From a virus: 28,465 bases of DNA. How positions within the stretch are numbered: position 1 is the stretch's first letter; each line of letters begins with the position of its first letter. Position numbers and translations under genes: made by a program. The notes under the pieces are model-generated. The model was not told the origin of the DNA, searched no databases, and worked only from the letters and a program-made list of their open reading frames with translations. Location of the stretch: positions 1 to 28,465 of the IMG/VR virus record IMGVR_UViG_3300032898_000278; one strand, written 5' to 3'. This document shows, piece after piece, positions 93-14,952 of the stretch.

Positions 93-640
93 CTTACGAA
101 ATGGCAGGCGCTCGGGCTGTCGATGGTCGATAGCCAGTTCATCGAGTCTCGCAACTTCCAGCTTCGCGACATCGCCCGCGTTCGACGTGCCGCCCTACAA
201 GCTGGCGATCGAGGGCGAGACCGAAGGCCCGGCGATGGTGCAGATGGGCCAGCAGTATTTGAATGGACCGATCTCGGGGTATTGCGAGCGGTGGAAGGCG
301 AAGGCGGAGCAATTCTACGAACTCGACGGCGACGACACGTTTCTGGATTGGGACTATGGGCATTTCCAAGGCGGACTTGCTGTCGCGGTTCACCGCGTAT
401 CGGCAGGCGGTCGGTGGGCCGTGGATGAAGGTCAACGAGGCGCGGCGCGCCGAGGGGCTGTCGAGCGTGCCGGATGGCGACACGGTGCAGCAGGCGGTGA
501 ATATGGCGCCGCTGGGCTGGGTGCCGTCGGCCAGGGGTGGCGTTGGCGATCAGGGGAGCAACCAGACCGGGGTACCGGGCGAGGGAGGCAATGGGGACCC
601 GAACCGCAACCCGGCGGATGATCCGGCGCCGGGGGTGTGA
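93..640 (+). pseudogene. HK97-family phage portal protein, C-terminal remnant with two frameshifts
   Basis: In an intact phage the portal forms the dodecameric DNA-entry ring at one capsid vertex and contacts the terminase. Three frames join into one portal-like C-terminus. Frame 3 (93 to about 177) gives WQALGLSMVDSQFIESRNF and RDIAR, the usual stretch before the portal VPP motif. Frame 1 (about 178-370) gives FDVPPYKL and later YLNGPISGYCERW. Frame 2 (about 375-640) gives ADLLSRFTAYRQ, NEARRAEGL and a Gly/Pro-rich tail. The first break fits loss of two bases in a GTGT run near 178-181. The second fits one extra G near 373. Bases 1-92 show no convincing portal similarity in any frame. The window starts inside the gene, so its 5' half is unseen. 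It is the only portal-like sequence here and lies about 13 kb upstream of the protease gene it would normally precede. Confidence 0.75.
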
Positions 641-749
641 GAGAAATGGGGTCGGTGGCTGGGCGGAAGTGCGTTAGTCTGAGTGCCGGCGTCCGGCGCG
701 AGGTCGTCATTCGCCGCAATGTGGACCGGTCTGCGCGATCGAGCAGCTC

Positions 750-1520
750 TTATCTGCGCCGCCGTCTCCTGCGCAGATGCTGAGTTTCATGCTCTGGTGC
801 CTGCTCGACGGGCACCATGTTTCGGCCAAGGTGAAGTGTTCGCCGCTCAACGCGTGTGAAGTCGTGTACGACCTGGGATCCCTGGATAACCTCAGCAAAC
901 CGCAGATCGAGACAGTCCGCCGCAGAAGCGCCCTCGAAGCTGCTGCGCGGCCGCCAGTGCTCTGGATAATACAGTCGTGCAATCATCATGCTGAACGCCA
1001 GCGGTCCAAGAAGCACCGCACATGGCCACCGATTGTCCACGTCTCGACCAATATGAAAATGTGCCGCTGGATGAGAAATTTCGCGGTACTGCGAACGAGA
1101 GTACTCGAATCGAATCGGAGGTACGGATGCCATATAGGGGAGCTCCCCGATAAGGTCCGAGGCCTCCTCATGGGTGAGGTAGCCCACCGCCTCCATAGCC
1201 TCCCAATGCTCCACAGCCTCCTGCGCATCGGCAACACCTGTTATCCAAGGATTGGGGAAATAGGCCATGCGCCATGCGTGTTCGCTTTCCCAAGAGAATT
1301 GGAAATAGGAGTAGTCTTGTAGAATGAAATTGTAGGCCGACCGACTTAATCCAACTCGGTAAATCTCAGCGTATGATGACTCTGGTTCCATCGCGACTCT
1401 CCTGACTTCGTCGTCTGCCAATAGCAACACGGGACAAATCATCGCCCTGCCAAGATTCAGGTCCACATCGAACAAATTCCACGCGTGCCCGATTTGTCGG
1501 ATAAATTCAGGAGCGTCCAT
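750..1520 (-). CDS. DUF2290 domain-containing protein
   Basis: This 256-residue protein starts at ATG 1520, which overlaps the 3' end of the upstream helicase gene by 14 bp, so the two are almost certainly co-translated. The pattern matches DUF2290: an N-terminal helical segment (IRQIGHAWNLFDVDLNL), a central IRFEYSRSQY, then HPAAHFHIGRD, WPCAVLLGPLAFSMMIARLYYPEHW. The conserved His residues of the HPxxHxHIG segment are present. The biochemical function of the family is unknown to me. The tail after about residue 190 is less typical and ends in seven consecutive arginines encoded within an inverted repeat. Pairing with a helicase suggests a two-component nucleic-acid-directed system; that is inference. 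Confidence 0.7.
   Translation of the reverse strand: MDAPEFIRQIGHAWNLFDVDLNLGRAMICPVLLLADDEVRRVAMEPESSYAEIYRVGLSRSAYNFILQDYSYFQFSWESEHAWRMAYFPNPWITGVADAQEAVEHWEAMEAVGYLTHEEASDLIGELPYMASVPPIRFEYSRSQYREISHPAAHFHIGRDVDNRWPCAVLLGPLAFSMMIARLYYPEHWRPRSSFEGASAADCLDLRFAEVIQGSQVVHDFTRVERRTLHLGRNMVPVEQAPEHETQHLRRRRRRR
752..778 (-). repeat. 8-bp perfect inverted repeat at the 3' end of the DUF2290 gene
   Basis: ATCTGCGC (752-759) and GCGCAGAT (771-778) form a perfect 8-bp stem with an 11-nt loop. It lies on the last codons of the leftward DUF2290 gene and touches its stop codon. It could act as a transcript-end hairpin, but no T-tract follows on the minus strand, so terminator function is uncertain. 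Confidence 0.35.
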
Positions 1521-3615
1521 TGCGACGACGCCCGCTGAGAAGCGGCCTCAGGTCCTCATCTGTCAGCCCCAAGTCTTCTTTCAAGCGCTCAAGCTCTGCC
1601 TGTGCACGCTGTAGTCGTGCATCTTTTTCTGATAGGTCGCGCTGGATAAGCTCAATCTTCGCCGGGTCAGGCATCACGAAGCGCATCTCGGGAGCTAGGC
1701 GTATCGCAGTCTCGATCTCTCTCTTCAGCGGGACGAACCGAGGCTCCATACCTGTGATACGCAGCCAGCCTTTCGTGCGCGTGAATGCGGTGAAAAGTCG
1801 ATTTCGGCCCGTCCTGGCTCCGAGTGGCACCGCGTCGCAACCTAATACTGCAACAACCGCTGCTTCATTTCCTTTTGCACGATAGACCGTGGTTAGCGTA
1901 GTTTTGCCTTCGATCATAAATGGCGGCTCGCTGTATCTGTCAGCGATAATGTTGTTTGAGTGAATATTACGCTGAGCCAACGCCTCAGCAAGCCTTGCCA
2001 GGTAAGATTGGGCTACACGGTCGTCGATCGCGATGGCCATGAGGTCCTCTGGCTGAAGGCCACCCGCGATGAATTTGGCGAACTCATCGGCGCAGAATGT
2101 TACCTCCTCATCCATTGACGCGAAACTGCGGACCTCAATGAGGGGGATATCGTGCGTAGGGCTGTTTCTGTCAGGGCGCCGGATAACAACGCTTGTACCG
2201 ACCCGCATGTTGCCGGAGACAACTTCATAGCCAACGTCCTCCCAGTGGTTCTTGTCCTGGAGCATCTGGACGGGCTGTCCGTACAGGCCGAAACCGGTCG
2301 CATGCGCTAGCACAAGAACATCACGTTGGTTCCGGTAACATTTTGGAAGGACGAAATCGTTGGTCTCGGCGTTTTCAGGGAGTGACCTCTGGAGCGAGAT
2401 CCGAGGGTGTCCGTCGACGTCAGTGCCGAACAACTCTGCTGGCGAGCGGACCTTCACGTCGAAAATATCCTGGAGCTCATCGTATGCCCAGATGATCTGC
2501 TTCGCGTCTCTCTCACCATTTGTCAAGTGGAAACAGAGTTCGTAAAATCCGTCTGGAAAATCCTGACCCTCGTCAATTAGTACTAAGTCGTAGTATGGAG
2601 CAACGCGACCCGTGTCGATTAGCGCTCGACATACATAGTCGAACGGAGTTTGACGAGGATCCTTACCCGACTGGGCTTCGCCGAGAGACAATGGTGATAT
2701 GCCCGCTCGCGCGCAGGCCTCCCTGTAGGTACCGCGCAGATCCTTACGGCCCCATCCGTGGTAGACGTGGATTCTCGCCCAGTCGGGGTCGCCCTCACCG
2801 AAATGGCGATAGAACCGTGTGATCAGTCTCCTAAGGGTATCGCGTAGACTCCTGGTATAGTACGTGACAAGTATGCGCGCATCTGGATTGTCGAGATGAG
2901 CCAACGCTGCTCTCATCGCAAGGATTACCGTTTTCCCAGATCCGGCAAGACCACGGATGCGCTGTGGGCCACCAAGAGCAGTCAGAGCCACAAGCCGTTG
3001 GCGCGCGTCGAAGCTAGCGATCTCTTCCTCGAGTCGGCTCAGGGCTACAGCCAGTGTTTGTCGCGACGGGTCAGGAATGGCCCTACGACTGCCCCGAACG
3101 AGCGCTTTCGCTCCTTCCAGGATGGACCGCGTTTCGGCGATTTGGTCCACCAGCAATTTCTGGTCATCTATGTCGCCAATGAAAGCCAGCAGTGCGGCCT
3201 CTGACCCAAAGACAGGAACGTCATCGACCAGGACATCGTCACTCCCCGGGGCGAAGACGATCGGCGTCACTTCGTAACACAGGCGCTGGCCCCTCGCCCT
3301 CAGGGTTGGGCTGCGAATAAGCTGGGAAACGGCGCTAGCGGTGACCTGTGATATGCTCTCAACGGTATCACGGATCACGCGGGCATTTGGAGCAGAGAGC
3401 ACTCTCATGAGCACAACCCCGGCCCTCGCGGAAACCAGAGCTAGGTCGACGCGATGCCTGACCGCGTCATAGTCTGTAAATTTCGGCCAGCCGTAGTAAA
3501 GGACCCCATCTCCCAGCATCCGCGAACCGGCACCGGTGGTGATTTCGGAAATCAAGTGATCTAGAACCGGGTATCTGGTCCGGTCTGCTCTGGTTGGGAT
3601 GAAGTCAATGGGCAT
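1507..3615 (-). CDS. UvrD/SF1-like helicase with a degenerate nuclease-like N-terminus
   Basis: This 702-residue protein is an ATP-dependent helicase or translocase of superfamily 1. Motifs in order: Walker A GLAGSGKT (222-229); Walker B LVLIDEGQD (344-352); a motif-III-like IIWAYDELQDIF (374-385); motif V TTVYRAKGNEA (575-585); motif VI RLFTAFTRTKGWL (606-618). The C-terminus (about 650-695) is charged and probably coiled coil. Residues 10-75 resemble a NERD/PD-(D/E)xK-like fold (HRVDLALVSARAGVVLMRV), but the expected ExK is absent, so nuclease activity is doubtful. The start chosen is ATG 3615, beginning MPIDFIPTR; the frame stays open to 3741, but the upstream stretch is Arg/Pro-rich and unlike a folded domain. 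No strong ribosome site precedes it. It overlaps the DUF2290 gene. Gabija-type GajB is another UvrD-like helicase, but no GajA is present. Confidence 0.85.
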   Translation of the reverse strand: MPIDFIPTRADRTRYPVLDHLISEITTGAGSRMLGDGVLYYGWPKFTDYDAVRHRVDLALVSARAGVVLMRVLSAPNARVIRDTVESISQVTASAVSQLIRSPTLRARGQRLCYEVTPIVFAPGSDDVLVDDVPVFGSEAALLAFIGDIDDQKLLVDQIAETRSILEGAKALVRGSRRAIPDPSRQTLAVALSRLEEEIASFDARQRLVALTALGGPQRIRGLAGSGKTVILAMRAALAHLDNPDARILVTYYTRSLRDTLRRLITRFYRHFGEGDPDWARIHVYHGWGRKDLRGTYREACARAGISPLSLGEAQSGKDPRQTPFDYVCRALIDTGRVAPYYDLVLIDEGQDFPDGFYELCFHLTNGERDAKQIIWAYDELQDIFDVKVRSPAELFGTDVDGHPRISLQRSLPENAETNDFVLPKCYRNQRDVLVLAHATGFGLYGQPVQMLQDKNHWEDVGYEVVSGNMRVGTSVVIRRPDRNSPTHDIPLIEVRSFASMDEEVTFCADEFAKFIAGGLQPEDLMAIAIDDRVAQSYLARLAEALAQRNIHSNNIIADRYSEPPFMIEGKTTLTTVYRAKGNEAAVVAVLGCDAVPLGARTGRNRLFTAFTRTKGWLRITGMEPRFVPLKREIETAIRLAPEMRFVMPDPAKIELIQRDLSEKDARLQRAQAELERLKEDLGLTDEDLRPLLSGRRRNGRS

Positions 3616-4060
3616 TCGATCAGACGCTTTCGCTGTTGAAGCCACGTGTGCGCGCGGCCCAACGCCTGACGGACGCACGAGGGCGTCCCGAACGGGGGGC
3701 ACCGTGCATAGTGCCCGCGGCACGGTAGGACACAAGAGCACCGGTCCCGGACGGTGGGGCGACTCGCAGTCAGGTCATCACTGGGTGCCCGGTCGGTCTG
3801 GGTTGGAGGGAAGGATGCTTCGGTTGTGCTTCGGTCAGTGAGAACCTGATCAGCATTCCACGTAGCGGCGGGTAGCCTGTCGCTGGCCCGCCGGCAGGTA
3901 TGGGGTATTAGCCCCACCGCGTTCCCCCTCCGGGACCGTGCGTGGGTGAAACGCGCTACGGCGCGAATTCGGGTGGGGGGTATGGCGCCCGCCGGCGGGA
4001 GGCCCGCGCGCGCGCAAAGCCAGCCGTCAGCGGCGATTGGCAGTGCCTGGTCTGCGGCCG
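3616..4060. other. Non-coding gap of about 445 bp between the helicase cassette and the leftward phage operon
   Basis: I see no convincing gene. The frames open here are Arg/Pro-rich with no domain pattern. It should hold the promoter of the helicase cassette near its left end, but I could not pick hexamers with confidence. Its right half contains the intron-like hairpins listed separately. Confidence 0.5.
3899..3968 (-). mobile_element. Possible 3'-end remnant of a group II intron (domain V/VI-like hairpins)
   Basis: Read on the minus strand, 3964-3932 begins GCGCCGTAGCGCG and ends CACGCACGGTCCC, followed by GGAGGGGG. That resembles a bacterial group II intron domain V (AGCCGT...GCACGGTTC) and the purine-rich linker after it. 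A second perfect hairpin, TGGGG (3901-3905) with CCCCA (3912-3916), lies where domain VI would be. Against the call: the catalytic AGC triad reads CGC, the tetraloop is not a clean GNRA, and no reverse transcriptase lies upstream. At most this is a short relic. Confidence 0.2.
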
Positions 4061-4348
4061 TCAGGAGTCGTCATCCGGGTCCAGGACCTCGCCCAGCCCG
4101 TCAAGGAGTGCTTTCAGGTTGAACCGGACCTCGCCGAGATCGCCCTTGTCCAAGGCGATCAACGCGTCGGCGGCGCAAATCAGCAGTTCGTCCGAGCCGA
4201 CATCGTTGACCTCGATATTGGGGTGTCCCCGGTAGGCCAGCATGGTTTCCAGGTTGGACCGGACCGTCGCCAGATCGCCCGTCACCAACGCGTCCACCGC
4301 GTCGGACGAGCAGGCAAGCAGATCGTCAAAGATGACATCGTGGGCCAT
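4061..4348 (-). CDS. Small acidic phage protein with an internal 34-residue duplication
   Basis: This 95-residue protein has no family I recognise. It is built from two copies of one helical unit. Copy 1 (about residues 8-41) reads DDLLACSSDAVDAL, GDLATVRSNLETML; copy 2 (about 53-86) reads DELLICAADALIAL, GDLGEVRFNLKALL. The spacing is identical, which points to a tandem helical-hairpin protein that may bind a partner or dimerise. ATG 4348 has a good ribosome site (AAAGGGG) six bases upstream. The gene lies just downstream of the methyltransferase-ParB gene on the same strand. A set of 8-bp tandem repeats (4359-4390) lies immediately upstream of its ribosome site, so it may have its own regulated promoter. 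Confidence 0.7.
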   Translation of the reverse strand: MAHDVIFDDLLACSSDAVDALVTGDLATVRSNLETMLAYRGHPNIEVNDVGSDELLICAADALIALDKGDLGEVRFNLKALLDGLGEVLDPDDDS

Positions 4349-4427: not shown

Positions 4428-6116
4428 TCAGGCGGCTTTCGCCGCCGTGTCGAGGAAACTTGCCTGGATGGCGACCTCGCGCAGCGCGACTTCGATGCGG
4501 CGCAGGTCGGTCTGCATGACGGCCAGCAGGTCGGCCAGGGTGCCGGCGCGGTGCGGGCTGGTCTTCCGGACCGCGACGATCTGGTTCTCCTGGATGCCGG
4601 AGCGCAGCAGGCCGGCGATCCGTTCGACGTGAGCCTCGAAGGCGTTGGCAAGGTCGCGGTCGGCCTTGGTCGGCGGCGGCGGCGCATCGGGCATCAGCAG
4701 AAGCTGGGCCTCCGCGTTGACCAGCGCGGTGGCCGAGGCCCGCAGGTCGTTGTAGTTCCGGCAGCCGCCGGTGCGGATGGCGTTGAACAGGGTGTCCTGC
4801 CCGCGCGGCGACAGGCGCACCAGTTCGGTCGCCTCGGAGGGTTTCAGGTTGCCCCTCGCCAGCAGGGCCTGGTACTCGGGCCGGAGATGGAGCAAGGCGG
4901 TGCGCTCGGTGATGCGCCACGGCGCCTTGCCGATCCGGGCGGCCAGTTCCTCCACGGTCCAGCCGGTCGAGTCCATCAGCGCCTGATAGGACCGCGCTTG
5001 CTCCAGCGGCGTGACGTCCTGGCGCTGATCGTTCTCGATGATCTGCATGACGCGGATCGTGGTGGTGTCTTTCGGCGCCGTCACGAACGCCCGGATCGTC
5101 GGGGCGCCGTTGATCTGGTGGGCGCGCCAGCGCCGCTCGCCGACCGCGATCATGTAAGGCGTGCGGCCGGTGGTCGAGGGCCGCACGACGATGGGCTGCA
5201 GTAGCCCGTCCGCCCGGATGGAGGCGGCGAGTTCGCGTAGCGCGGCCGGCTCGAACACCTTGCGAGGCTGGTCGGGGTCGGGCTCGATCTGGTCCATCGG
5301 GATGTCGCGGGCCGTGGCCTCGGGTTCCTCGGTGACCGCGGGCGCCGGAGGGGCTGCCTTGGTGGCGAAGATGATCCGGGTAGCGACGCCGGTCCCGCTC
5401 TCGCGGAACGTGTCGTCGGGTAGCTTCACTGCGTCGGCGCCGATCTCTTCGAGCCACGCGCGGAACTCGCGTGCCGCGGTGTCCTGCCGGAAGAACGGAC
5501 CCTCGGAGCAAATGGCGATCACGCGCCGGCCGGGCCGGACGAACTGCCATGCCGCGCGAATGTGCTTGATGTCCTGATTGTTCGAGAACGGCGGGTTCAT
5601 CACCACCGCGTCGTACAGCGCGGCGTCCACCTTCGCGTACTCGAGGAAATCCTGCTCGCACACGCAACGAATGTCAGGGATGGCGCGGAGGACCTTGCAG
5701 TTTTCCCTATCGATCTCGACGGCATCGACCATCGCGCCCCTGGCCATCAGGTGCCGGACGATCCGGCCCTGGCCGGCGCTCGGTTCCAGGGCAATCTCGC
5801 CCGCGCCGATGCCGGAGACGCTGACCATGCGCTGCGCGAGATCGTCGGGCGTCTCGAAGAATTGGAGGTTTCGCTTGGCGTCAACGACAACGCCGTTCGC
5901 GACTACCGCGCCGATCAATTCGCGCGGATCGAAGGGGAAGACGTGACCGTTGGCCTTGCGGTTCCATTTGCCGCGCGCCGCGGTCAGCACCTTGGCCACG
6001 CGGAGGTAGGTTGGGCGGTCGAGTTGCTCGGGGAGGGTAAGGACGTTGCCGGCGATGGTGCTGCGGCGGAGGATCGGGAGTACGTCGTCTGGCACCCGCG
6101 TTCTGGTGGCGGACAT
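4428..6116 (-). CDS. Adenine-specific DNA methyltransferase fused to a ParB/Spo0J domain
   Basis: This 562-residue protein has two parts. Residues about 80-250 are an N6-adenine-type methyltransferase: FFETPDDLAQRMV, the SAM-binding LEPSAGQGRI (110-119), acidic EID (134-136) and the catalytic NPPF (174-177). Residues about 268-440 are ParB-like: IPMDQIEPDPDQPRKVF, GLLQPIVVRP, the GERRWRA box (326-332), then a helix-turn-helix region (VEELAARIGKAPWRI). The C-terminus is helical. Phages use such proteins to methylate their DNA against restriction; the ParB half would give site recognition or CTP-switch behaviour. The start is ATG 6116, at the end of a leftward cluster. GC-rich codon use matches the neighbouring phage genes. 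Whether it methylates specific sites or regulates transcription cannot be seen. Confidence 0.85.
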   Translation of the reverse strand: MSATRTRVPDDVLPILRRSTIAGNVLTLPEQLDRPTYLRVAKVLTAARGKWNRKANGHVFPFDPRELIGAVVANGVVVDAKRNLQFFETPDDLAQRMVSVSGIGAGEIALEPSAGQGRIVRHLMARGAMVDAVEIDRENCKVLRAIPDIRCVCEQDFLEYAKVDAALYDAVVMNPPFSNNQDIKHIRAAWQFVRPGRRVIAICSEGPFFRQDTAAREFRAWLEEIGADAVKLPDDTFRESGTGVATRIIFATKAAPPAPAVTEEPEATARDIPMDQIEPDPDQPRKVFEPAALRELAASIRADGLLQPIVVRPSTTGRTPYMIAVGERRWRAHQINGAPTIRAFVTAPKDTTTIRVMQIIENDQRQDVTPLEQARSYQALMDSTGWTVEELAARIGKAPWRITERTALLHLRPEYQALLARGNLKPSEATELVRLSPRGQDTLFNAIRTGGCRNYNDLRASATALVNAEAQLLLMPDAPPPPTKADRDLANAFEAHVERIAGLLRSGIQENQIVAVRKTSPHRAGTLADLLAVMQTDLRRIEVALREVAIQASFLDTAAKAA

Positions 6117-9641: not shown

Positions 9642-10970
9642 ATGTTTGTTGGAGCTGTGCCGCGCCCCGCTGTTGAGCAAATCACGCGCTCGGTCCCCTT
9701 CACCGACTGGCACCAGGTCTTTGTCGGATGCTCCGGATCATTCCGCTTCGACCGAGCGGTGCGGGAGATTCACCCGACCGTCGCCGTGCATTCGAACGAC
9801 GTCTCGCTGCTGTCCTGCACGGTGGGTGCGCTCGCCACCGGCGCCGAGTTCCCGATTGAGTTCAAGGGCCGGCTCGCCTTCATTGAGCCGCTGCTCGCGG
9901 GCCAGCCCTTCGCAGCGCGCGCCGCGGCGGTCCAGATCGCACTGGAAATGGCAAAATACAAGGGCACCAACCCGTACGCCCAGGCGCATTTCCGGCACTA
10001 CGAGGAACAGTTTGTCGAGTTCCTCGCGCCGGTTCGGACGCGGCTCGATCAATTCCTCGAAGGGCTGCACATCGCGAGCTTCCATCCCGGAGATTTCCGG
10101 GAGCAAGCGCGCCGCGCGGCCGGCGCCGGCGGTGGCGTTGCCGCGTTCCCGCCGACCTACAAGAACGGGTATGAGCGGCTGTACCGCTTCGTCGATCAAA
10201 ACACCGACTGGCCGCGGCCGTCCTATGGCGTTTGGGACCCTGCCGCGCTTGAGGCGTGGCTGGATGAGCTGGACGCCATGCGGGTGCGGTATTGCGTGCT
10301 GACCGACCACACGCTCGACCATCACCAGCCGGTGACTGTCTATCGCGGAGAATCAAACAAGCCGGTCTTCACCTTCGCGGACCAGTCTGCCAGTTCGGTG
10401 CGCCGCACCCAACACCGGTCAACGCCGTTCCGTTACACCAAGCTCGATCCGGCGGTACTGACCCCTGCCTCGCGCGTCGAGATCGTCGGCGCAACGTCAG
10501 GACAGATGAACTTCCTGAAGGACATCTACCTGGCGAAGGGGATCGCGCACACCGCCGGCATCGCGAACTTCCTGGTGTTGATCGACGGCCACCTGGCCGG
10601 TGGCTTCATCTACGCCCGCGACAAGTGGGGCGGCGACCTGCTCTACCTGCTTTCGGATTTCGCGCTGTCGCCGCGCAGCCGGGTGTCGAAGCTGATCGCA
10701 ATGCTGGCGACCTCGGCGACGATCATTGAGCGGATGCAGGTCCGGCTGGTGCAGCGGATCGACTCGCTGATGACCACGGCTTTTACGTCGAAGCCGGTGT
10801 CCATGAAGTACCGCGGCATCTTCGAACTGTTGGGCCGCGGCCCCGGGATGTTGAACTATGGCAGCAAGATCAGACAGCAAACCCCAACTGAAATCTACGC
10901 CGAGTGGTTCCAGCGGTTCGTTGCAAACGCGCGTCACACGGATGCGGCTCGCCGACCTGACGCTGCTTGA
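9642..10970 (+). CDS. Putative phage antirestriction DNA-modification protein (methyltransferase-like plus Mom/GNAT-like)
   Basis: This 442-residue protein resembles phage proteins annotated as putative antirestriction adenine methyltransferases. The N-terminus has a SAM-fold-like pair: FVGCSGSF (27-34) and HSNDVSLLS (50-58), reminiscent of D12-type motifs. No DPPY/NPPF catalytic motif is seen. The C-terminal third (IANFLVLIDGHLAGGFIY, LLSDFALSPRSRVSKLI, MTTAFTSKPVSMKYRG) looks like a GNAT fold of the Mom type, which in phage Mu modifies adenine so that host restriction fails. ATG 9642 has AGGG about seven bases upstream. It opens the late operon and overlaps the ParB-like gene that follows. 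The chemistry and two-domain reading are inference. Confidence 0.6.
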   Translation: MFVGAVPRPAVEQITRSVPFTDWHQVFVGCSGSFRFDRAVREIHPTVAVHSNDVSLLSCTVGALATGAEFPIEFKGRLAFIEPLLAGQPFAARAAAVQIALEMAKYKGTNPYAQAHFRHYEEQFVEFLAPVRTRLDQFLEGLHIASFHPGDFREQARRAAGAGGGVAAFPPTYKNGYERLYRFVDQNTDWPRPSYGVWDPAALEAWLDELDAMRVRYCVLTDHTLDHHQPVTVYRGESNKPVFTFADQSASSVRRTQHRSTPFRYTKLDPAVLTPASRVEIVGATSGQMNFLKDIYLAKGIAHTAGIANFLVLIDGHLAGGFIYARDKWGGDLLYLLSDFALSPRSRVSKLIAMLATSATIIERMQVRLVQRIDSLMTTAFTSKPVSMKYRGIFELLGRGPGMLNYGSKIRQQTPTEIYAEWFQRFVANARHTDAARRPDAA

Positions 10971-11637: not shown

Positions 11638-12088
11638 ACCGAAGCCCACGAAACTGAAACTCGTCACCGGCAACCCGGGCCGGCGCCCTCTCAACGATCG
11701 AGAGGCGACGCCGCGGACGGTGATCCCCGATCCGCCCGACATGCTGAAAGACGAGGCGCTGGCGGAGTGGCGCCGCATCACGGTGTTGCTGGCCGAGGTC
11801 GGCCTGATCGCGAAGCTCGATCGCGCCGTCATCGCCGGCTACTGCCAAGCCTGGGCGCGCTGGGTCGAGTGCGAACGCCAGCTTGTGAACACCGGACTCA
11901 TCATCAAGGCACCGAACGGGTTCCCGATGTATTCGCCCTATCTCACCGCCGCGAACAAGGCACTCGACCAGGTACGCCAGCTCTCGGAACAAATCGGCCT
12001 GTCGGGTTCGGCGCGCTCGCGGATCAGGGCGAGCGACGCGCCGGGGGACATCGACCCGGCCGAAGACTTCCTGCGTGGCAGGGCGTAA
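11624..12088 (+). CDS. terS: P27-family phage terminase small subunit
   Basis: This 154-residue protein recognises phage DNA and recruits the large subunit at the start of packaging. The basic, proline-rich N-terminus (MQGPKPKPTKLKLVTGNPGR) and LKDEALAEWRRITVLLAEVGLI, LDRAVIAGYCQAWARWVE are typical of the P27 family. The segment MYSPYLTAANKALDQVRQL is the usual oligomerisation helix. ATG 11624 follows GGGAG closely. Both ends overlap neighbours by 14 bp, giving a tight packaging operon. Confidence 0.9.
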   Translation: MQGPKPKPTKLKLVTGNPGRRPLNDREATPRTVIPDPPDMLKDEALAEWRRITVLLAEVGLIAKLDRAVIAGYCQAWARWVECERQLVNTGLIIKAPNGFPMYSPYLTAANKALDQVRQLSEQIGLSGSARSRIRASDAPGDIDPAEDFLRGRA

Positions 12089-13793
12089 GCGGCCGGCTGA
12101 GCCGCAGGACCCGGTCGAGGCGTATGCCAGGGCGGTTGTCGGGAACCAGCACGTCACCGGGCGCCTGGTTCGGCTCGCCTGCGAGCGCCACATGCGCGAC
12201 CTGGCTGATGGTCGAGCGCGTGGCCTGCGCTGGGACCGCGACTCCGCCCAGCGCGCGATCGACTTCTTCCCGAAGGTCCTGCGCCACAGCAAGGGGCAGT
12301 ATGCCGGCCAGCCGTTCAATCTGCTCGATTGGGAAGCGTTCGTTGTCGGCTCGATTTTCGGCTGGAAGCTCTGGCTGCCGGACAAGCAGATCGAGGTTCG
12401 GCGGTTCCGCACCGCGTTCGTGTCCACCGCCCGCAAGAACGGCAAATCCACCATCGAGGCCGGCATCGGTCTCAAGGCGCTGATCGACGAAAACGAGCCC
12501 GGCGCGGAAATCTACTCCGCCGCAACAACGCGCGATCAGGCGCGGATCGTGTTCTCCGAGGCCGAACGCATGCGGGCCGGTTCGCTCGCGCTGCGCCGGC
12601 GGATTGTCAAGACAACAAACAACCTCGCGGTGTTGTCCACCGCATCGTGGTTCCGGCCGCTGTCGGCTGACACGTCGAAGATGGACGGGTTGAACGTCTT
12701 CGTCGCTCTTGTTGACGAACTGCACGAGCATCCCGATGCCGGCGTGATCGAGAAACTCGACACCGGCATGGGAGCGCGGCTCCAACCGCTGATGTACGAA
12801 ACAACCACGGCTGGCGTGAGTCGCACGTCCGTCTGCTACCTGCACTGGGACTTTTCGGTGAAAATCCTGGACGGGGTCATCCCCCAGGTCACCGCCGACC
12901 GATGGTTCGCCTACATCGCGACCGTTGATGATGGCGACGACTGGCAGGACGAACTGGCCTGGCGCAAGGCCAATCCGTCGCTGGGCACGGTGCTCCAGAT
13001 CGAGGACCTGCGCGCCGAGGTTGCACTCGCGCTGGAGATGCCATCGCGGCAGAACTCGATCCGGCGCCTGCGGCTCAACCAGTGGACCCAGCAGCTCGTG
13101 CGCTGGATCCCGATGGAGGTCTGGGCTGACGGCGCCGAGCAAATCGACGCGGAGGCGCTGCGGGGCCGGAGGTGCTTCGCCGGGCTGGACCTGGCGCGGA
13201 TCAACGACCTGTCGTCGCTGGCACTGCTGTTCCCGCCGGTCAGCGACGGCGAACGATGGAAAGTTCTGTGGCGCCACTGGTGCCCGGCCGACAACATCGA
13301 GGAGCGATCGAGGCGGGACCGTGCGCCCTACCAGGTCTGGCGCGGCCAGGGCCATTTGATCGCGACCGAAGGCAACACGACGGACTTCAAGTTTGTCGAG
13401 GCGGCGATCCTGGAGCTTGCCGGCATCTACAACATCGAAGAACTGGCGTTCGACCGGACATTTGCCGGCGAGATCATCCGTAACCTGGCGGACGAGGGCA
13501 TGAACCTGGTCGAGTTCGGCCAGGGCTTCCTCAGCATGGGGCCGGCAGCGGCGGAGTTCATGCGCAAGGTGCTGGCGCGCGAACTGCAGCATGGCGCCGA
13601 TCCGGTGGCCGACTGGTGTGCGTCTAACGTGTCGATCCGCACCGACCCGGCCGGCAACGTGAAGCCGGACAAGGAACGCTCGATCGAGCGCATCGATCCG
13701 ATCGTCGCGGTGATCATGGCGGTGGGCCGCTCGATGGCGGAGGAATCCGGCATCTACGCCGACGGCCGCGGCCTGTTGATTGTCGGAGGCTGA
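12075..13793 (+). CDS. terL: Phage terminase large subunit (HK97 type)
   Basis: This 572-residue ATP-driven motor packages and cuts DNA. The start is GTG 12075, inside terS. ATPase motifs: Walker A STARKNGKS (117-125) and Walker B NVFVALVDELHEH (207-219). The RNase H-like nuclease has GLDLARINDLSSL with Asp372, LAFDRTFAGEII with Asp460, and an Asp at about 541 (DPIVAVIMAVGRSM). Length is normal and no break is seen. In an HK97-like phage the portal gene should follow. Here the next gene is the protease, whose ATG lies seven bases after this stop. Confidence 0.95.
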   Translation: MAGRKRPAEPQDPVEAYARAVVGNQHVTGRLVRLACERHMRDLADGRARGLRWDRDSAQRAIDFFPKVLRHSKGQYAGQPFNLLDWEAFVVGSIFGWKLWLPDKQIEVRRFRTAFVSTARKNGKSTIEAGIGLKALIDENEPGAEIYSAATTRDQARIVFSEAERMRAGSLALRRRIVKTTNNLAVLSTASWFRPLSADTSKMDGLNVFVALVDELHEHPDAGVIEKLDTGMGARLQPLMYETTTAGVSRTSVCYLHWDFSVKILDGVIPQVTADRWFAYIATVDDGDDWQDELAWRKANPSLGTVLQIEDLRAEVALALEMPSRQNSIRRLRLNQWTQQLVRWIPMEVWADGAEQIDAEALRGRRCFAGLDLARINDLSSLALLFPPVSDGERWKVLWRHWCPADNIEERSRRDRAPYQVWRGQGHLIATEGNTTDFKFVEAAILELAGIYNIEELAFDRTFAGEIIRNLADEGMNLVEFGQGFLSMGPAAAEFMRKVLARELQHGADPVADWCASNVSIRTDPAGNVKPDKERSIERIDPIVAVIMAVGRSMAEESGIYADGRGLLIVGG

Positions 13794-13800
13794 TGAGTCC

Positions 13801-14952
13801 ATGACCGCGTTGATGAGCGCCGACCAGTTCCGCGGGGAACTGCGGGCGAAGCGCAAACCTGTCGGGGGCGTGTATAGGGTCAGCGTGGCGCAACCCCTGC
13901 CGGTGGACGGTGCGGCGCGCACGCTGCGCTTCTGCTTTTCCGACGGCAGCATCGATCGCATGAACGACACGATCGCCGCGGCCGGCTGGGACCTCACTGA
14001 CTTCCTGGCGAACCCAGTGGCACTGTGAGCACATGACAGTTCCGCCCCGCCGATCGGCGGCGCGCGCAACGTCGGCGTCGAGGGCGACCGTTTGCTGGGC
14101 GACATCGAGTTCGCGCCGCCCGAGACCTATGCGTTCGCCGACACGATCTATCGCCTGGTGCTGGGCAAGTTCTTGCGCGCGGTCAGCGTCGGCTTCCTGC
14201 CGACCCGCTACGCCTTTGTCGAGAACGATCCCGAGCGCGGATTCGGCATCGACTTCCTCGAACAATCTCTTCTCGAAATCAGCGTGTGCCCGGTGCCGGC
14301 AAACCCAAACGCGCTGCAAGAGGCACGCCGCAAGGGCATCGACACGCGGCCGTTGGTGGAATGGGCGGAGCGCACGCTCGATTGCGACGGCAAGGCGACC
14401 CTACCACGCGCCGAATTGGAACGCCTGCGCAGGGCAGCAAAGGAACCGGCTATGACAGCACGCACGCCCCCTCGGTCCGCCAGCTCGGGGCGACCCGCAC
14501 GACGCGCTGGCGGCGGGAGCGAAGACGATCCCACCGTCCGCACCTGCGGACGCAGCGCCGACGACGAATGCGGGCTGGCCGACCCGTCCGAGTGCGCGGT
14601 TCACGGTGGTACCGCCGCGGCGCCGGACGCCGACGAGAAACTGCTGGCAGCCTTGCGCCGGCTTCTGGGGCGCCGGAAAGATGACAGCGTACCAGGGGAT
14701 GACGACCCGCCGGTGGCGCACGAGGACGCGATCCGGCTCGCTCACAAATCCATGCGCACCGCAAAGGCTTACATGGCGGAAGGGATGACGCACCACGCAA
14801 AGGCGCTGAGCCTGCTTGATGGCGTGGTCGATGCGTTGGACGCCGACCCAGTCACCGATCCACCAGCCGACCCTGATCCCGATGCCAACGCGGAGAAAGC
14901 TGCGCAACTCGCGCGCGCGACTGCACTGAAAGCGCGCCTCGCCGCGACCTGA
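13801..14952 (+). pseudogene. HK97-family prohead protease with an in-frame TGA at codon 76
   Basis: This would be the capsid maturation protease, about 383 codons with a long C-terminal extension. ATG 13801 has GGAGG 11 bases upstream. Residues 1-75 end FLANPVAL, then TGA (14026-14028), then AHDSSAPPIGGARNVG in the same frame. Relatives read LWAHDSS here, so TGA replaces a Trp codon (TGG) by one substitution. The catalytic His is codon 78 and the Ser (AVSVGF) codon 129, both beyond the stop. The 5' fragment alone is inactive, and a restart at TTG 14092 would lack the His. From about codon 220 the protein has an Arg/Gly-rich and then acidic tail (DPPADPDPDANAEKA), perhaps a scaffold-like segment. 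The downstream frame is otherwise intact, so decay is recent, unless TGA is read through. Confidence 0.85.

Follow-up and report, generated by a model that had tools for sequence, protein, structure and literature searches.

A predicted Helicase-DUF2290 defence pair in a variable cargo slot of a phage genome

What does a helicase gene that overlaps a DUF2290 gene contribute when it is carried by a phage, and has such a pair been described before? The question was raised by a locus in IMG/VR virus record IMGVR_UViG_3300032898_000278, of which positions 1 to 28,465 (28,465 nucleotides) were analysed as a whole and are referred to here as the window. The original prediction regarded the pair as a defence-type module and stated that no described system had this exact pairing. 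The latter statement is contradicted by the literature, as Helicase-DUF2290 (Rst_HelicaseDUF2290) has been published as an active anti-phage system that inhibits T7 and is found at hotspots in prophages and satellites (Rousset et al. 2022, PMC9122126), was listed in a 2023 review of defence domains where its role was described as unexplored (PMC10952713), appears by name in the phylogeny of Hachiman (PMC12278908) and is modelled in PADLOC. Helicase-DUF2290 is already characterised for activity. The pairing itself is known, and new here are the evidence on the slot, the pattern of live and dead NERD domains and a new carrier.

Gene pair and family membership

The helicase was composed of a NERD-like pseudo-nuclease (aa 1-185), a core (aa ~190-650) and a C-terminal helical tail, and contained a UvrD_C_2 match (E=3e-9) above the Pfam curated cut-off. 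The partner matched DUF2290 (PF10053) with 47.6 bits against a curated cut-off of 25. The coupling of the two genes by a 14-bp overlap was exact in the ORF coordinates as predicted (Table 1), and the same overlap was found in the homologous loci L002, L010, L011, L015 and L022. The range originally given for the pair, 1507-3615, was found to be that of the helicase alone, with DUF2290 at 1520-750. A chance pairing was excluded because full-length relatives, with helicases 66% and 52% identical to that of the window, carry the same pair.

Table 1. Coordinates of the gene pair, its slot and the flanking genes in the window
Feature	Position	Strand	Basis
Left flank: 3' end of HK97-type portal gene	98..640	+	whole in L048, L052
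Variable cargo slot with the pair	about 634..3896	.	flank comparison with related phages; G+C
DUF2290 protein, 256 aa	750..1520	-	ORF; PF10053
14-bp overlap of helicase and DUF2290 genes (translational coupling)	1507..1520	-	
SF1 (UvrD-like) helicase/ATPase, 702 aa	1507..3615	-	ORF; ATG at 3615, stop ends 1507
NERD-like domain of helicase, catalytic D57 kept, ExK lost	3061..3615	-	alignment, hhalign, model
Right flank: small gene, 95 aa, conserved in relatives	4061..4348	-	
Right flank: methyltransferase-ParB/HTH fusion, 562 aa, conserved in relatives	4428..6116	-	

The ATPase motifs, which had been read as intact, were invariant across the family alignments, including Walker A (residues 222-229), DEGQD (348-352), YDELQ (378-382), YRN (427-429), AKGNEA (580-585) and R613. 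The closest PDB folds to the whole AlphaFold2 model of the helicase (pLDDT 85.2, pTM 0.86) were the SF1 enzymes SLFN11, SLFN14, Dna2 and UvrD. The human Schlafen proteins SLFN11/SLFN14 were the top matches (E=3.7e-17), but with low TM-scores (0.33-0.43) and 13% identity they are structural neighbours only, and the likeness is that of a shared SF1 core and no evidence for a common function.

The PADLOC 'Helicase' model PDLC03002 matched the helicase with 417 bits over aa 36-683 of 702, and the PADLOC DUF2290 models PDLC02998/02999 matched the partner at 54 bits. Since PDLC03002 also matched unpaired sister helicases with intact NERD domains (242-389 bits, core only), this profile alone was not taken as proof of membership. 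Judged by profile and synteny together, namely a family-profile helicase with invariant motifs, a neighbouring DUF2290 gene within one operon and a location in a variable slot of a mobile element, the pair almost certainly belongs to the published Helicase-DUF2290 system, carried here by a phage, and we regard it as an intact-looking, real member of a known defence system. The window shares with that system the same two genes, matches to both PADLOC models and a phage cargo site, although its helicase belongs to a divergent branch, about 31% identical to the form on an E. coli plasmid, and the plasmid forms closest to the PADLOC model were only about 30% identical to it. The nearest kin of the window pair were carried by an Agrobacterium plasmid, by a viral contig and by a MAG with the label Proteobacteria. 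The window slot lies between portal and parB genes and differs from a P4-like satellite hotspot.

Two other defence systems of similar composition were compared. Gabija (GajA-GajB) likewise joins a UvrD-like helicase to a second protein, but the window has no GajA; no GajA-type OLD/TOPRIM nuclease was present beside the helicase, whose partner was DUF2290 and whose upstream genes were the small unknown gene and the methyltransferase-ParB gene, and the GajB models gave 21 bits compared with 417 for the Helicase model. Hachiman (HamA-HamB) is also a two-gene system of a helicase and a former DUF acting as effector nuclease, but HamB is an SF2 Ski2-like helicase and HamA a DUF1837 protein with D-ExK (PMC12278908), whereas the window helicase is SF1/UvrD with a DUF2290 partner, and no HamA or HamB domains were found. 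The PA1372-PA1371 pair of Pseudomonas aeruginosa PAO1 has been assigned to the same helicase and DUF2290 system (PMC11637435), and its likeness to the window pair is by that published assignment; it lies in a chromosomal island and is known from an effect on plasmid cost, not from phage defence.

Cargo slot and distribution

The predicted cargo position of the pair was confirmed as a variable slot by comparison with the related phages L047, L048 and L052. Similarity to the window ended at 3897 in all three and resumed at 633, within the portal gene, in L048 and L052 at about 90% identity. The slot contained about 3.26 kb with the pair in the window, and other DNA of 756 bp in L052 and about 1.26 kb in L048, while L047 featured pentapeptide-repeat and transposase sequence on its own side of the slot. 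The G+C content was 55-57% in the helicase and DUF2290 genes versus 64% in the remainder. Because relatives share both flanks with other DNA between them, and the G+C content of the pair is lower, the pair is exchangeable cargo outside the phage core. A further contig from this phage (L003, L051), 99.8-100% identical, ended in the helicase gene at 2784, which may reflect a branch in the assembly at the variable slot.

The left flank had been described as a broken portal relic. Positions 98-634 corresponded to residues 265-444 of a portal protein of 445 aa that L048 and L052 encode in full, and the frame was indeed broken twice, near 179 and between 360 and 440. The gene is however cut by the start of the contig and is whole in the relatives, so that the term relic was only partly upheld, and a sequencing or assembly error near the contig end would explain the frame breaks equally as well as decay. 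The portal sequence, at 1-640, was located apart from the terminase (12075-13793) and head protease (14092-14952) genes of the window, between which no portal gene was found. In L048, too, the portal gene was close to parB, and an integrase gene lay beyond it.

On the right flank, phage contigs with 77-100% identity were found for the methyltransferase-ParB gene. This gene encodes a small-methyltransferase domain fused to ParB N and HTH domains, the halves of which matched separate records in deposited phages. The 95-aa protein had no Pfam or PHROG match and was made up of two similar halves, DDLLACSSDAVDAL.. and DELLICAADALIAL.. respectively. Another fusion, at 9642-10970 (+), joined phage DNA adenine methylase-like and phage GNAT-like domains (PF22555 and PF22559).

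DUF2290 was located directly downstream of the helicase on the same strand in all 21 distinct loci surveyed (the window, one MAG (L002), eleven plasmids (L005-L015) and eight viral contigs (L017-L023, L025)), with a gap of -20 to +43 bp, and in L012 DUF2290 was annotated as two overlapping pieces. Searches that started from DUF2290 found the helicase adjacent in 5/5 plasmid records and 5/5 viral loci. The original prediction would have been refuted by DUF2290 being rarely adjacent to this helicase and lacking defence neighbours, and these loci showed the opposite. Defence genes in the neighbourhood included SIR2 and HsdR (L005), BrnTA toxin-antitoxin (L008), an Abi protein (L013), type I RM (L014) and BREX (L015), among loci that were selected for homology and inspected visually and so do not amount to an enrichment test. 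The earlier defence reading gained support from these neighbours and from the place of the pair in a published anti-phage family. On the Thioflavicoccus plasmid (L015, 3455-6308) the pair was situated between the methyltransferase and PglZ genes of the BREX locus.

Neither protein had a match in 50,697 deposited phage genomes. Single-sequence scans with the helicase returned one genome locus and one viral locus, the latter from the same phage, and those with DUF2290 returned no locus; alignment queries subsequently returned 11 viral loci. The single DUF2290 carrier among 369 genomes of the phylum of the MAG was the MAG itself, which provides no host-range statistic, and E. coli genomes searched at near identity with the plasmid form gave no match.

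NERD-like domain and DUF2290 protein

The nuclease-like N-terminus without ExK was correctly anticipated. D57 was kept and the E and K positions were occupied by R71 and L73, the predicted model had the alpha-beta-beta-beta-alpha-beta order of the PD-(D/E)xK core, and the N-terminal 185 residues matched the intact NERD domains of related helicases by hhalign (E=2.3e-7, probability 93.5%). These features identify the N-domain, as judged from sequence, as a catalytically dead NERD (PD-(D/E)xK-like) nuclease domain. The NERD-UvrD helicases (PADLOC C3a187; 'nuclease-related domain-containing DEAD/DEAH box helicase') have a homologous core and N-domain, but they keep PD-ExK and are without a DUF2290 gene, whereas the window helicase has lost ExK and has DUF2290. 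The PD-(D/E)xK catalytic residues required of a NERD-UvrD nuclease-helicase were thus absent from its N-domain.

This distinction extended across the family. ExK was absent in all 22 helicases of the paired set, consisting of 21 for which DUF2290 was seen and L026, which was cut off by its own contig end. It was kept in seven of the eight sampled unpaired full-length sister helicases, whose loci had no DUF2290 match, so that in this sampling of roughly 30 cases it was the DUF2290-paired helicases that lacked their own working nuclease. The unpaired sisters formed one clade with 100/100 support in a tree which, being unrooted, gives no order for the loss of catalysis with DUF2290 versus its gain without DUF2290. 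The sole exception was a Haloferax plasmid (L028, 2350-4581) that encoded an unpaired helicase without ExK in its NERD-like domain, and loss of ExK alone does not imply a DUF2290 partner.

Among DUF2290 proteins with about 20% identity, D69, R137, H150-P151-x-x-H154, R164, F176 and Y185 were invariant. The D/R/HPxxH/R cluster would probably form an active or ligand site, and it is the conserved residues alone that hint at a catalytic activity. A Foldseek search with the AlphaFold2 model (pLDDT 79, pTM 0.77) gave no significant fold, the best matches being E=0.68 in PDB and 0.24 in BFVD, and the DUF2290 profile returned only noise from PDB sequences. Two possible relationships were considered and rejected. 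TumE toxins (PF20126) appeared similar by eye (D..H.H and DN...HxH), but hhalign with 7 TumE sequences only gave E=0.74 over 1 column, and NERD domains gave E=0.53 and 0.35. A Pantoea plasmid (L033, 2653-5270) encoded a divergent helicase and, after it, a protein of 212 aa in which an HPxxH element occurs; this protein is possibly a further branch of DUF2290-like partners (hhalign to DUF2290 with one sequence, E=0.0018, probability only 15%). AbiJ-NTD4 and PemK/MazF genes were located upstream of the L033 helicase.

Candidate mechanism and meaning

The pair would most likely shield the phage-carrying host cell from competing phages and plasmids. The SF1 helicase may load onto and translocate along structures of invader DNA (ends, forks, ssDNA) as sensor and motor, the catalytically dead NERD-type domain may serve as a docking or DNA-binding module, and the co-translated DUF2290 protein, with its D/R/HPxxH/R cluster, would be the effector that damages nucleic acid once the helicase engages its target. 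This sensor-effector mechanism as a whole is given a probability of about one half; the sensor role of the helicase, the effector role of DUF2290 and a physical complex of the two are what we infer. Hachiman provides a precedent, as its DUF proved to be a nuclease released by the helicase (PMC12278908), and a DUF partner can therefore be an effector. A more specific version, in which DUF2290 is an unrecognised effector enzyme (a nuclease or phosphodiesterase with a D/R/HPxxH/R site) whose fold is not represented in PDB, with catalysis swapped between NERD in cis and DUF2290 in trans and NERD left as a dead docking module, is put forward tentatively. Anti-phage activity has been published for relatives, against T7.

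The roles could also be reversed, with the helicase as effector that unwinds or displaces the phage replication or transcription machinery and DUF2290 as a non-catalytic loading or specificity factor or a brake. The structurally nearest SF1 helicases (SLFN11, Dna2, UvrD) do act directly on DNA or forks, no known enzyme fold matches DUF2290, and tight coupling with gene overlap fits an obligate accessory subunit. This arrangement is nevertheless rather doubtful, as the D/R/H/H/R set is invariant at such low identity, in the manner of an active or ligand site, and a working nuclease is missing from precisely the helicases that have DUF2290 beside them.

It is less plausible again that the pair resembles a toxin-antitoxin module, in which one protein restrains the other until infection releases it and leads to abortive infection. 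The two genes are co-translated, plasmid carriers occur near toxin-antitoxin genes and PA1372 is costly in plasmid-bearing cells (PMC4410645), but a large helicase is unlike known antitoxins and the relation of DUF2290 to TumE failed in hhalign. A function for the phage itself, as a replication or recombination accessory or in counter-defence instead of host defence, appears very improbable. The pair adjoins the phage methyltransferase-ParB gene and SF1 helicases do occur in phages, yet the deposited phage genomes held no match while many were found on plasmids, published relatives block T7 (PMC9122126), and the pair is considered dispensable for the phage because close relatives have the same slot without it.

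The sensor-effector mechanism may also bear on plasmids. Loss of the P. aeruginosa PA1372 helicase abolishes the cost of plasmid pNUK73 and an SOS-type response (PMC4410645), an effect that its authors attributed to raised expression of the plasmid rep gene, not to attack on DNA (PMC4410645). The result would be consistent with action on replicating plasmid DNA.

Helicase-DUF2290 is present in defence catalogues, and the interest of the pair lies in its mechanism. The mutual exclusion of a dead NERD domain with DUF2290 and a live NERD domain without it provides a concrete, mutable prediction on the site of catalysis, and the PAO1 pair of the same system connects plasmid cost with defence against phages. 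In the window, a cargo slot of the phage is seen in which a defence pair is swapped with other DNA.
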